Shown: piece by piece, positions 19,259 to 29,732 of the stretch
How the letters are laid out: every line of letters begins with the position of its first letter
Numbering within the stretch: the stretch's first letter is position 1
Assembly (NCBI GenBank): GCA_015056545.1
Contig: SVGE01000008.1
Span: 1 to 45,460, forward strand
From: Clostridiales bacterium
Lineage (GTDB): Bacteria; Bacillota; Clostridia; TANB77; SIG350
Direction of reading: 5' to 3'
Length of the DNA stretch: 45,460 bases
The notes under the pieces: model-generated
What the model was told of the DNA's origin: nothing
Database searches by the model: none
What the model saw: the letters and a program-made list of their open reading frames with translations, nothing else
Program-made: the position numbers and the translations under genes

Positions 19259-21145
19259 CTAGTTATTTGCAACTGTTACATTGCCATTAGGCACAAATTC
19301 AAAAGTTGTTTCATTCCAAGTAACAGAAGTAGCTGCCATTTCATTTAATTTACTAGAAGTACCACTTAAAGTAACTGGTTTAACTATATCTATAAACATT
19401 AAGCTATAACTTTCCGGTTCAGCATTAATCTCTATATTACCAGTTAAATTAGGACAACCAGTGAATGTTTGAGTAAGATCTTTTATTCCACTATTAATAA
19501 CAGGAGCTGTTACTATACTTGAATTAGCAAAACAATTTTTTAAACTTATAACATCTTTACCTGCAATTTGACTTAAAATTTCACCATATGTAGATTTTGT
19601 CTTATCAATAACTGCAACGCCCCAACCATCGAAAGTATTATAATCACCCCATTCTATACTTTCATTATGCATACTATATCTATATTCATAATCTCCTTCT
19701 ACATAAATGTCACCCTTTTCAACAGTTTCTGGGAAGGCACCATTTATATATTTAATAGAAGGTTCTGAATAATTACCAAATTCATTATTAACTACACCTT
19801 TATAATAAACACCTGTTTTTGAAACATCACCTCCATCAATAGTTTCAATAGGTTTAACTAATGTAATGCCATTTACTTCTGCAATTTTTTGTTTTAATTC
19901 ATCAGAAATAGAACCAGTAATCCATGTAATCTTTGTTCCTTCTAAAGCCGCACTATAAGACATTTCATCATTAATATTTAAATTAGCATTAATTTCAATT
20001 GTTCCTGTTAAACTAGTACAATTAGCAAAAGCATTATTCATATCAACAATACTTTCTGGAATTACTGGTGCTTGTACTAACGATGTACAGTTGCCAAAAG
20101 TAATAGGCAAAGCTGTTACACTACTTGGAATTTCAGGAGCAACTTTCAATGCTGTACACTCACAAAACGTTTGCATCATATTAGTAACGCCATAAGGAAT
20201 TTCAGGAGCAACTTCTAGCGATGTACAACTAAAAAATGTCAATAACATACTAGTAACACCACTTGGGATACTAGGAGCAACTTCTAATGATATACAATTA
20301 TTATAAGAATACGCCATGCTTTCTACATAAGATGGTAAAGTTGGACTTTCTATAAGATTAGCACAATTAGCAAAAATACTATCAGCAGAAACAATATTCT
20401 TATTATTAATTGTAGTTAAAATGGTACCATAAGATGATTTGGTATTATCTAATACTCTTACTCCCCATCCGTTTAAATCTGACCTTTCTCCCCAAGAATT
20501 CATTTGTGGGTAAATATTGTCAAAACTATAATACATATTATATCTATATTCATAGTCACCATATACATAAACATCACCAATTTGAGGTATTGGGAATTCA
20601 TCACCAGCTGTATATTCTGCTTCAGCTCCAGTATAATTACTAAGTGCATATATCTCTACATCACTTCCATACATATCTACAACCTCATTTCGAGGTACTT
20701 TAACATAATATTTACCACCTTCAGGAATTATTCCATTATGAATTATTGGTAGTATTACTTTTTCTCCTATTCCTAAATCTAAAAGCCATGTACTATATGG
20801 CTCTTCACTTCTACTTCCCAATACTATTTCTCCATTTTGTATTTCTACTAAGTCTTTATATTCTTCTTTAAATTCTGGGATTAATTCTTGTATTTTCTCT
20901 AATGTATCTGCATTTAATAATCCACCTTCTCCATTTCCTGTTGCTAGTTCTATTTGTTTTTCTGCATTCTTTACTGCTAGTATTTCTTGATATATTCTTA
21001 TATCACTTTTGAATACCGCTTCTTTTGCCTTTTCTATTATGCCTCCTTCCATAAACGTAACTATAACTGCAGCAGTTAATATTATTAGTACAATTATTGT
21101 TACTACTAATGCAACAAGTGATATACCTGATGTGCTTTTCTTCAT
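19259..21145 (-). CDS. Pilin-like surface protein with BspA-type leucine-rich repeats
   Basis: 628 residues. The N-terminus, a short Lys-rich stretch then GISLVALVVTIIVLIILTAA, resembles a type IV prepilin segment, but the usual Glu at +5 is Ala. A helical stalk follows to about residue 100. Two copies of an unnamed module (GD-YV-GDYEYRY-M, then WGV-V-D-TKS-YG-IL) occur, the first followed by four 23-residue BspA-type repeats of the form AP-IP--VT-M--TF--CTSL. The protein is likely anchored and exposed at the surface. The first part is nearly identical to the protein at 27835-28911. Transcription passes through a structured leader ending in a terminator before the gene. Confidence 0.82.
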   Translation of the reverse strand: MKKSTSGISLVALVVTIIVLIILTAAVIVTFMEGGIIEKAKEAVFKSDIRIYQEILAVKNAEKQIELATGNGEGGLLNADTLEKIQELIPEFKEEYKDLVEIQNGEIVLGSRSEEPYSTWLLDLGIGEKVILPIIHNGIIPEGGKYYVKVPRNEVVDMYGSDVEIYALSNYTGAEAEYTAGDEFPIPQIGDVYVYGDYEYRYNMYYSFDNIYPQMNSWGERSDLNGWGVRVLDNTKSSYGTILTTINNKNIVSADSIFANCANLIESPTLPSYVESMAYSYNNCISLEVAPSIPSGVTSMLLTFFSCTSLEVAPEIPYGVTNMMQTFCECTALKVAPEIPSSVTALPITFGNCTSLVQAPVIPESIVDMNNAFANCTSLTGTIEINANLNINDEMSYSAALEGTKITWITGSISDELKQKIAEVNGITLVKPIETIDGGDVSKTGVYYKGVVNNEFGNYSEPSIKYINGAFPETVEKGDIYVEGDYEYRYSMHNESIEWGDYNTFDGWGVAVIDKTKSTYGEILSQIAGKDVISLKNCFANSSIVTAPVINSGIKDLTQTFTGCPNLTGNIEINAEPESYSLMFIDIVKPVTLSGTSSKLNEMAATSVTWNETTFEFVPNGNVTVANN

Positions 21146-21210: not shown

Positions 21211-21261
21211 AAAAAGAACTTAAGGCCATATTACTTTTCGTAATATATTCTTAAGTTCTTT
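21211..21261 (-). terminator. Attenuator terminator in leader 1
   Basis: Minus-strand AAAGAACTTAAG pairs perfectly with CTTAAGTTCTTT and is followed by TTG after a T-run. Inside is a second hairpin, ATATTAC/GTAATAT. It lies 66 bases before the ATG at 21145, so it must be bypassed for expression. Confidence 0.85.
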
Positions 21262-21378
21262 ATATTTTTTTGCATGTCAATTAAAGATGTTTTTATACTA
21301 TAAACATCCCCCCCCTAGTATTTAGCACTTTCTGGCTCTTTGTACTGGTTTTATTTGACATTTTTTCACCCCTTTTCT
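21211..21378 (-). ncRNA. Structured leader 1: candidate riboswitch/attenuator
   Basis: On the minus strand the RNA should start near 21378. An outer stem pairs TGTCAAATAAA (21350-21360) with TTTAATTGACA (21275-21285), one mismatch. Within it is a core CAGAAAGTGCTAAATACTAG, eight G (21308-21315) and a hairpin GATGTTT/AAACATC (21286-21308). A terminator (21211-21261) follows. Bases 21239-21334 match leader 2 with three differences, while the stretch between terminator and start codon differs. I do not recognise the motif; it is not GEMM-I (c-di-GMP), preQ1, SAM, TPP or T-box by eye. Confidence 0.7.
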
Positions 21379-21384
21379 TTTTGT

Positions 21385-21413
21385 AATATATCATATGTAG
21401 TTCAAGAGTTCAA
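21385..21413 (-). promoter_or_regulatory. Promoter of leader 1
   Basis: Minus-strand TTGAAC (21408-21413), 17 bases, TATATT (21385-21390), about seven bases ahead of the proposed leader start. Confidence 0.65.
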
Positions 21414-27834: not shown

Positions 27835-28911
27835 CTAATTATTTATATTTTTTACTGTTACATTACCTGAAGGATTTCCAAATTCATCAACTGCTGTTGC
27901 TGCTATTTCAGATAATATAGGGCAAGTTCCTGTTAAAACTATAGGTTGCACTGTACCAGCAAAGCAATCACTATAAGTTAAATTTGTTGCATTAATTTCT
28001 ATTTCACCTGTTAATGAAATACAATCTCTAAAAGTCCATTCTAGGAATACTACACTATTAGGTATTATAGGACCATCTTCTAAGGAATCACAATAAGCAA
28101 AAGCAGCGTACATATTTTCTACACTATTAGGTATTGTAGGCGCTGTTATAATATTAGAATACCTAAAAGCCCATTCCATATTGCGCATAGGCACACCATT
28201 TATTTCTTCTAAAATTATACCATACTCTGTCTTATCTGGATTAAGAATATGCATTGACCAGTAGTTTGAATTGCTACCATATGACCAGATTTCATACCAA
28301 AACATATTATAGCGATACTCATAATCACCATATACATAAACATCTCCTGTATTTACTGTTTCTGGAAAACTATCTCCAGCATATAAAATTTTTGTAGCTC
28401 CACTATAATCACCAACTGCAGTATCTTCTTCAACGCTTACATAATAAATTCCTCCTTCTGGAATTATTCCATTATGAACAGTTGGTGTATTTACTGTTTC
28501 ATCTCCTGTTTTTCCTGCTACTATTCCTAATTCTGCAAGCCATGTACTATATGGTTCATCACTTCTTGCTCCTAATACTATTTCTCCATTACTTATTGCT
28601 ATTAAATCCTTATATTCTTCTTTAAATTCGGGGATTATTTCTTGTATTTCTGCTAATTCTGTTGCATTATATAATCCGCCTTCTCCATTTCCGGTTGCTA
28701 GTTCTATTTGTTTTTCTGCATTCTTTACTGCTAATATTTCTTGATATGTTCTTATATCACTTTTAAATACAGCTTCTTTTGCCCTATCTATTATGCCTCC
28801 TTCCATAAACGTAACTATAACTGCAGCTGTTAATATTATTAGCACAATTATTGTTACAATTAGTGCAACTAAGCTTATACCTGATGTTTTACTATTCTTT
28901 AAATTTTTCAT
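27835..28911 (-). CDS. Pilin-like surface protein, short paralogue
   Basis: 358 residues. After a short basic start come GISLVALIVTIIVLIILTAA and a stalk that is almost identical to the 628-residue protein for about 115 residues, including AVKNAEKQIELATGNGEGG and EPYSTWL. It has one copy of the GDVYVYGDYEYRYNM module, then two or three degenerate 23-residue repeats (APTIPNSVENMYAAFAYCDSL, GPIIPNSVVFLEWTFRDC split across units) and the end GNVTVKN. AGGAGG supports the ATG. It is controlled through a structured leader like its paralogue. No pilus assembly genes are in the window, so true pilus incorporation is unproven. Confidence 0.8.
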   Translation of the reverse strand: MKNLKNSKTSGISLVALIVTIIVLIILTAAVIVTFMEGGIIDRAKEAVFKSDIRTYQEILAVKNAEKQIELATGNGEGGLYNATELAEIQEIIPEFKEEYKDLIAISNGEIVLGARSDEPYSTWLAELGIVAGKTGDETVNTPTVHNGIIPEGGIYYVSVEEDTAVGDYSGATKILYAGDSFPETVNTGDVYVYGDYEYRYNMFWYEIWSYGSNSNYWSMHILNPDKTEYGIILEEINGVPMRNMEWAFRYSNIITAPTIPNSVENMYAAFAYCDSLEDGPIIPNSVVFLEWTFRDCISLTGEIEINATNLTYSDCFAGTVQPIVLTGTCPILSEIAATAVDEFGNPSGNVTVKNINN

Positions 28912-29078: not shown

Positions 29079-29131
29079 AAAAGAACCTAAGACTATACTA
29101 CGTTTTCTCGTAATATATTCTTAAGTTCTTT
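29079..29131 (-). terminator. Attenuator terminator in leader 2
   Basis: Minus-strand AAAGAACTTAAG pairs with CTTAGGTTCTTT, with one U-G pair where leader 1 has U-A, and runs into TGTTTT. The inner hairpin is ATATTACG/CGTAGTAT. The 3' half differs from leader 1 but pairing is kept. Confidence 0.8.
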
Positions 29132-29231
29132 GTATTTTTTTTGCATGTCAATTAAAGATGTTTTTATATTATAAACATCCCCCCCCTAGTATTTAGCACT
29201 TTCTGACAGTTTTGCTTAGGTTTATTTGACA
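29079..29231 (-). ncRNA. Structured leader 2: candidate riboswitch/attenuator
   Basis: Same organisation as leader 1: outer stem 29221-29231 with 29146-29156, core CAGAAAGTGCTAAATACTAG, eight G (29179-29186), inner hairpin GATGTTT/AAACATC (29157-29179), then the terminator. Bases 29109-29205 match leader 1 with three differences. The strand between the outer stem and the core differs. Some 165 bases lie between terminator and ATG, AT-rich and without other visible structure. No clear promoter is seen: the leader begins about 50 bases after divIVA, so read-through or a weak promoter is possible. Confidence 0.68.
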
Positions 29232-29264
29232 TTTTCTTACACCTCTTTTTTTGTTAATTTTTAA

Positions 29265-29296
29265 AACAAAGTAAAGAAATTAATCCTTACTTTGTT
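29265..29296 (-). terminator. Hairpin across the divIVA stop codon
   Basis: Minus-strand AACAAAGTAA pairs with TTACTTTGTT (ten bases), 12-base loop, then TTAAAAATT. Only a short T-run, so termination may be partial. Confidence 0.55.
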
Positions 29297-29732
29297 CTTT
29301 TAATAATTCTAATTGACTAATTAATAATGCTTCTGTTTTTGCTTTATATACTTCAACTTGTTTTACTAATTCATCATATTCAATTTGTTTTGCTGTTAAT
29401 TTATTATTTATTTCAGATAATATTTCTTGTGCTTTGTTATTAGCATTTCCTATTATATTTTCCGCTTCTTTTTTTGCATTATTTTTTAAATCTTCTGCAG
29501 CATTTTGTGCAACCATTAAGGTATTTTGAAGAGTATCTTCCATTGATTTGTAATGTGAGATACCATCATTTAATGAATTTGCCTTATCTTTTAGTTCAAT
29601 ATTTTCTTTATATAAAATTTCATAATCTCTAAGTATTTCTTCTAAAAAATCTTCTACTTCATCTGCATCATATCCATTAAAGACCATTTTTTTCTGAAAT
29701 TCTTTGTTCTCAATATCACGAGGAGTTAACAT
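29280..29732 (-). CDS. divIVA: DivIVA domain protein
   Basis: 150 residues. The N-terminal membrane-binding motif LTPRDIENKEFQKKMVFNGYDADEVEDFL is typical, followed by a long coiled coil (residues about 35-145) rich in Ala, Glu and Lys. DivIVA binds negatively curved membrane at poles and septa and recruits division, wall growth or sporulation factors. It follows sepF, the conserved order, although ylmG, often between them, is absent. Start supported by GAAGGAAGTG. Confidence 0.92.
   Translation of the reverse strand: MLTPRDIENKEFQKKMVFNGYDADEVEDFLEEILRDYEILYKENIELKDKANSLNDGISHYKSMEDTLQNTLMVAQNAAEDLKNNAKKEAENIIGNANNKAQEILSEINNKLTAKQIEYDELVKQVEVYKAKTEALLISQLELLKEQSKD

Follow-up and report, generated by a model that had tools for sequence, protein, structure and literature searches.

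Two short leaders in a Clostridiales contig (SVGE01000008.1, of which the 45,460 nucleotides analysed here are called the window) precede different genes, and each carries a run of eight G residues just ahead of a hairpin. What keeps two such leaders alike? The original prediction, which was made from this sequence, held that selection on RNA structure explains the likeness better than a simple recent duplication. Alignment confirmed that leader 2 matches leader 1 over about 97 nt, from CAGAAAGTG to ATTACG, with G8 in both and only three differences (G/A, a one-base A indel, and T/C), both leaders being on the minus strand. As had been claimed, the changes in the predicted terminator preserve pairing, with U-A becoming U-G and AUAUUAC/GUAAUAU becoming AUAUUACG/CGUAGUAU. 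The accompanying statement that the surrounding DNA has diverged is only partly correct, since 300 nt near the starts of both downstream genes are 88% identical. The features of the two loci are as follows.

29240-29245, minus strand: ribosome-binding site GAGGTG of leader 2, read from the sequence.
29230-29232, minus strand: ATG start codon of the leader 2 open reading frame (ORF) (MSNKPKQNCQKVLNTRGG...), at the conserved start-to-run distance.
29179-29186, minus strand: G run of leader 2, G8, predicted OFF.
29164-29171, minus strand: OFF-frame stops of leader 2, TAA at 29171-29169 for G10 and TAA at 29166-29164 for the present G8.
29157-29179, minus strand: small hairpin GATGTTT/AAACATC of leader 2, with the OFF stops in its loop, identified from pair conservation.
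29145-29232, minus strand: possible helix P1 of leader 2, AUGUCAA (29232-29226) with UUGACAU (29151-29145), over the start codon, from the minimum-energy fold.
29079-29130, minus strand: predicted intrinsic terminator of leader 2, a stem of about 21 bp followed by TTCTTTT (dG -22.9 kcal/mol).
29093-29095, minus strand: predicted ON-frame (G9) stop of leader 2, in the 3' arm of the terminator, from frame simulation.
27835-28911, minus strand: prepilin-like gene downstream of leader 2 (MKNLKNSKTSGISLVALIVTIIVLIILTAAVIV...), from the ORF list and family search.
21408-21413, minus strand: -35 box TTGAAC of the leader 1 promoter, with the -10 box TATATT at 21390-21385 and TGA before it.
21359-21361, minus strand: ATG start codon of the leader 1 ORF (MSNKTSTKSQKVLNTRGG...), from sequence and frames.
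21308-21315, minus strand: G run of leader 1, G8, predicted OFF, read from the sequence.
21211-21260, minus strand: predicted intrinsic terminator of leader 1 (dG -19.6 kcal/mol), with the ON-frame stop TAA at 21233-21231 inside it.
19259-21145, minus strand: prepilin-like gene downstream of leader 1, with a BspA-type leucine-rich repeat (LRR) region, from the ORF list and family search.

The count of two copies had to be corrected. A DNA search of the window's own genome (1.45 Mb in 17 contigs) recovered about 33 copies of one short leader, comprising 30 full copies with 85 to 100% identity and incomplete ones at contig ends. Several contigs of this draft genome terminate in the leader repeat. 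Every run of at least eight G residues in the genome lies within a leader, the exceptions being L060:978 and L060:8556, two sites on contig 14 that belong to a different repeat. This other repeat is present in two copies, has an inverted AATGTCCCC...GGGGGGGGGACATT structure, and each copy is found 3' of an ORF copy related to MNKNILKLIFENRVDDISKITE. In the window itself, positions 907 to 1835 hold a tandem unit repeated three times, each of about 333 to 336 nt and 72 to 89% identical. A DNA search of 57 relatives and of 385 genomes of the order found no other genome carrying the leader; weaker matches were rejected because they resemble chance hits in AT-rich sequence. GTDB contigs and IMG/VR, from which records near the window genome may be left out, were also scanned for exact patterns and gave no match. 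No Rfam family matched the leader at the gathering score, where only a tRNA was detected in the window, and the permissive mode returned nothing relevant.

The copies share a common anatomy. A promoter-like TTGAAA, followed after 17 nt by TATATT and with TG before this second hexamer, is present in 30 of the 31 leaders (spacing judged by eye). The GG(T)G core of the ribosome-binding site is conserved in 30/30 aligned copies despite variable flanks, and the start codon is ATG, or TTG in four copies. From this start codon to the G run, the distance is 45 nt with zero indels in 31/31 copies. The short ORF thus delimited encodes MSNK......QKVLNTR and then glycines, and AAAGTGCTAAATACT before the run is invariant among leaders. 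Run length, on the other hand, varies among the paralogous copies and is 7, 8, 9, 10, 11, or 13. Located 3' of the run are the small hairpin GAUGUUU/AAACAUC, with stop codons in its loop, and an intrinsic terminator predicted from sequence and folding (a stem of about 21 bp, dG about -23 kcal/mol, and a TTCTTTT tail). Wherever the contig is long enough, the leader is followed by a prepilin-like gene that has a separate ribosome-binding site and begins 216 to 389 nt from the leader start.

Given that a G run lies inside a short ORF, we set its length to each residue modulo 3 in the 30 complete copies and read the resulting frames. In 30/30 copies, two of the three frames meet a stop codon 9 to 26 nt past the run (at 10 or 15 nt for nearly all copies), and the third crosses the 5' arm of the terminator without a stop, ending in or just past the terminator. 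The OFF stops of leader 2 lie 33 and 38 nt 5' of the terminator stem. Since two frames close early and one is open through the terminator, run length modulo 3 should set whether a ribosome arrives at the terminator. Among spacers that differ in length and sequence, the terminator falls in one of two frames, each of which stays open. In L029 and L030, an open frame is retained, at G10 instead of G9, despite a one-base difference. All 26 distinct post-run sequences keep the frame, compared to 16.3 +/- 2.2 in simulations with the same number of changes scattered at random, in which 26 was never reached in 5,000 trials. When each distinct change was counted once, frame conservation had a P value of about 6.5e-4; because the leader copies are related, these tests and controls are not fully independent. 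Ahead of the run, variable sites are evenly spread over the three codon positions (5/4/6), and therefore the frame is kept while the peptide itself is apparently unconstrained.

The reading that we favor, at a probability of about 0.82, is that each leader acts as a phase-variable transcription attenuator operating by translation-coupled anti-termination. Transcription would start from the promoter just upstream of the leader, and a ribosome would begin the short ORF at its AUG or UUG codon. The frame of this ORF would then be shifted by replication slippage in the G run, occurring at a given locus within a population. In two of the three frames, the ribosome would stop early and a working terminator would fold, leaving the pilin-like gene OFF. 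In the third frame, translation would block termination, as the ribosome would cover the 5' arm of the terminator and RNA polymerase would read through, turning the gene ON, so that expression is predicted to track run length. If each of about 33 separate loci is switched in this way, the subsets of related surface proteins displayed by a population could change.

Under this scheme, both window leaders (G8) read as predicted OFF. At their assembled lengths, only four leaders read as ON, namely, L003, L008, and L022 (G9) and L030 (G10), and the remaining 27 of 31 read as OFF. ON leaders are rarer than one-third (binomial P = 0.009, for copies that are not independent), a distribution which is compatible with the switch model and would also fit decay. 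Leader 2 is the one leader without the promoter box found in the other 30 of 31. A strict sigma-70 and terminator scan near leader 2 gave promoters at chance level and no terminator under the T-run rule. In place of the promoter of this leader, the end of a DivIVA-family gene (29280-29732) carries a hairpin with T's behind it (window positions 29240 to 29300). Leader 2 may be silent or fed by read-through.

We also considered that the leader could be a structured RNA, i.e., a riboswitch-like or protein-bound element that senses a signal and controls the terminator, with the G run as a binding or pairing element. The fold of leader 2 is strong compared to shuffled sequences (z = -6.6), and 15 nucleotides 5' of the G run are invariant. 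Over the 30 paralogous copies, terminator stem pairs are kept in 98.9% of cells. In the small hairpin, 216 of 217 pairs are intact. RNA structure is conserved by both of these measures, which a structured RNA would also account for. No two-sided, compensatory change was found in the terminator stem among the 30 copies, where five pairs vary by one-sided wobble, and because all pair-preserving changes there are one-sided wobbles, a test for compensatory changes has almost no power on the terminator. The small hairpin shows a single two-sided change, from U-A to C-G, in four related copies. As for helix P1, its outer pair is broken by the four TTG starts, three copies keep pairing by wobble, and one breaks it. 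Against a sensing RNA stand the lack of an Rfam family, run lengths that range from 7 to 13, and the fact that a binding element needs neither a kept start codon, nor an indel-free segment before the run, nor an open frame through the terminator. The same layout is moreover repeated with dissimilar sequence in another genome (G007, described below), and we regard this explanation as quite unlikely. Within the attenuator reading, the small hairpin might, as a guess, make RNA polymerase pause and so give the ribosome time to catch up. The claim of selection on RNA structure was borne out in part, in that the pairs are conserved; it missed the ORF that carries the G run, and the leaders also owe much of their identity to shared ancestry, perhaps together with gene conversion. 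The main feature beyond structure is the G run within a short ORF, which is predicted to set whether this ORF ends before or inside the terminator.

Such ancestry could be taken further, the leader being a conserved cassette kept by gene conversion or recent duplication that may promote recombination of the pilin-like genes, with the G run as an unregulated slippery tract. Leader copies are 85 to 94% identical to each other across dispersed loci, the starts of the genes are conserved too, and gene conversion would help such likeness. Diverged positions and indel-bearing spacers nonetheless still preserve the open frame and the terminator, making a cassette very unlikely as the whole account, although it is not exclusive of the attenuator, since conversion may act on a functional switch. 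It is highly improbable that the G run is instead a length-variable target of a C-rich small RNA that affects translation or stability of the downstream mRNA. A variable G run in the 5' leader of a surface protein gene does fit the tlpB/RepG precedent of Helicobacter pylori, but the run here is more than 200 nt from the start of the pilin-like gene, with a terminator between them, and the frame pattern is not predicted by pairing with a small RNA. Least probable of all is a nonheritable mechanism, in which RNA polymerase slips or ribosomes shift frame on the run, or ribosomes stall at GGG codons as in amino acid attenuation. In its favor, 8 to 13 G's could slip in transcription or translation, and GGG codons are expected to be rare in this AT-rich genome. 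Against it, genomic run length differs among copies as heritable slippage predicts; such events could coexist with a heritable switch and blur its OFF state.

The proteins encoded downstream of the leaders share an MK..K.SGISLVALIVTIIVLIILTAAVIV start, and their mean pairwise identity, 89% over residues 1 to 45, is down to 27% in the C-terminal part; BspA-type LRRs are found in a few of them. They carry a G^ISLVAL motif without the usual Glu5, gave only a weak GspG hint, and none of them has a Pfam pilin match. One leader and its gene (C13:20609) are located directly 3' of a type IV pilus operon with genes for PilB-, PilT-, and PilC-like proteins; a prepilin peptidase domain (A24_N) is encoded nearby. 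The A24 peptidase catalytic domain (PF01478) was not found in the window genome. Because the proteins have neither a Pfam pilin match nor Glu5, yet Pil-like genes lie beside one leader, we infer from their sequences that the downstream genes encode a family of prepilin-like surface proteins.

A scan of the 385 genomes of the order for a ribosome-binding site, a start codon, and G8 identified a genome of another family, G007, whose DNA at this place is identical to that of a goat-rumen Clostridia metagenome-assembled genome, RGIG3495 (JAFSUW010000021). Three leaders are present there, dissimilar in sequence to the window leaders but alike in layout. Two of them read ATGGGATAT...ATC-G9-TAA..., with a G8 frame whose stop, TAG, is located in the 3' arm of the terminator and other frames that stop no more than 8 nt past the run. 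Their predicted terminator is GCAGATAAAGCTATG/CATAGTTTTATCTGC-TTTTT (-21.7 kcal/mol), and both precede canonical type IV pilins (MKQKGFTLIELIIVIAILGIIALIAVPN; GFTLIE). The third has G7, and only its G8 frame reaches the terminator (read by hand); it precedes a protein whose start resembles, by eye, that of surface proteins of the copper amine oxidase N type. In two same-genus genomes, G503 and G708 (L152 and L153), an ORF leader with G20 and G15, respectively, precedes the same PAS-like gene, and in both the frame as assembled stops precisely where a large hairpin has its base. This pair is a possible third case of the switch.

Generic matches to the same pattern elsewhere were set aside as mostly chance-like or as G runs inside a coding gene (G569, G571, G711, and G694), and elsewhere in the class G runs sit within coding genes. 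G569, from another Clostridia family, has at least five surface-type proteins (L179 to L183; MKMLKFTTGGGQALLR...) with G8 to G11 directly in the coding frame, which is ordinary coding phase variation. L184, L185, and L186 (in G571, G711, and G694) encode membrane proteins that by eye are acyltransferase-like, with a G run near the start codon, and are likely phase variable. In L123 (G171), a small ORF contains G11, and with G9 its frame would end at TAAATG, where the stop and the following start codon overlap, so a phase switch by translational coupling is possible. Lastly, L118 (G269) has G10 in a short ORF (MIGKIYGVGGG...) just 3' of a sequence that by eye resembles a variable region of a diversity-generating retroelement.

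Leader-ORF attenuation would thus be genome-wide in an uncharacterized Clostridia lineage and would recur, with dissimilar sequence, in another family. We consider it rather probable that homopolymer slippage acting solely via a leader ORF and attenuation constitutes a general type of phase variation among Clostridia of the gut and rumen, with more than one origin, as suggested by the dissimilar G007 leaders, and with some 33 independent switches here allowing combinatorial surface display. Scans for repeats in coding sequences miss such a switch because it lies outside genes. Its layout (start codon, G run, one open frame, and terminator) is directly searchable, and metagenomic reads could reveal the state of each gene.

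Parts of this arrangement are known from other systems. In H. pylori, tlpB has a G run of variable length in its 5' leader, as here, but the run acts via pairing with the RepG small RNA and not via a leader ORF and terminator. Attenuation of Escherichia coli pyrBI is controlled by UTP-dependent pausing; there, as proposed here, the hairpin is blocked by a ribosome that trails RNA polymerase closely and translates a leader ORF extending into the terminator, whereas the changes proposed here are heritable frame changes. Replication slippage in a G tract switches pili in the gut bacterium Bifidobacterium breve, where the tract is intragenic (Penno et al. 2022, PMC9187656). That switch alters the frame of the pilus protein itself, while the G tract described here is in a leader with a terminator.

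The closest likeness is with Streptococcus gallolyticus pil1, in which the number of GCAGA repeats was shown experimentally to set the length of a leader peptide; with the long form, ribosomes can break up a premature terminator located 5' of the gene (Danne et al. 2014, PMC3894217). The pil3 locus has the same layout, and its high variants carry a like change; strains with a leader stop at least 28 nt before the terminator resemble the parental strain, which is mostly low expressing (PMC3894217). In the literature searched, which was mostly outside subscription journals, we found no further phase variation by leader-ORF attenuation than these two pilus loci of one streptococcus, and the words attenuation, terminator, leader peptide, and gallolyticus are all absent from a 2025 review of phase variation. 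As in pil1 and pil3, the repeat here lies in a leader ORF with a ribosome-binding site and start codon (31/31 copies), and OFF stops fall well before the terminator while ON stops fall in or past it (30/30), with a pilus gene downstream in S. gallolyticus. An intrinsic terminator is likewise predicted between leader ORF and gene, here from sequence and folding. The OFF stops of leader 2, 33 and 38 nt before the stem, compare with the distance of at least 28 nt in the low-expressing S. gallolyticus strains. No sequence relation was seen between the two sets of leaders, and the repeat unit is a GCAGA pentamer in one and a single G in the other, which we treat as a variant rather than as defining the mechanism. 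S. gallolyticus has two such loci, which encode sortase pili, whereas about 33 loci preceding type IV prepilin-like proteins are found here in an uncultured Clostridia lineage.
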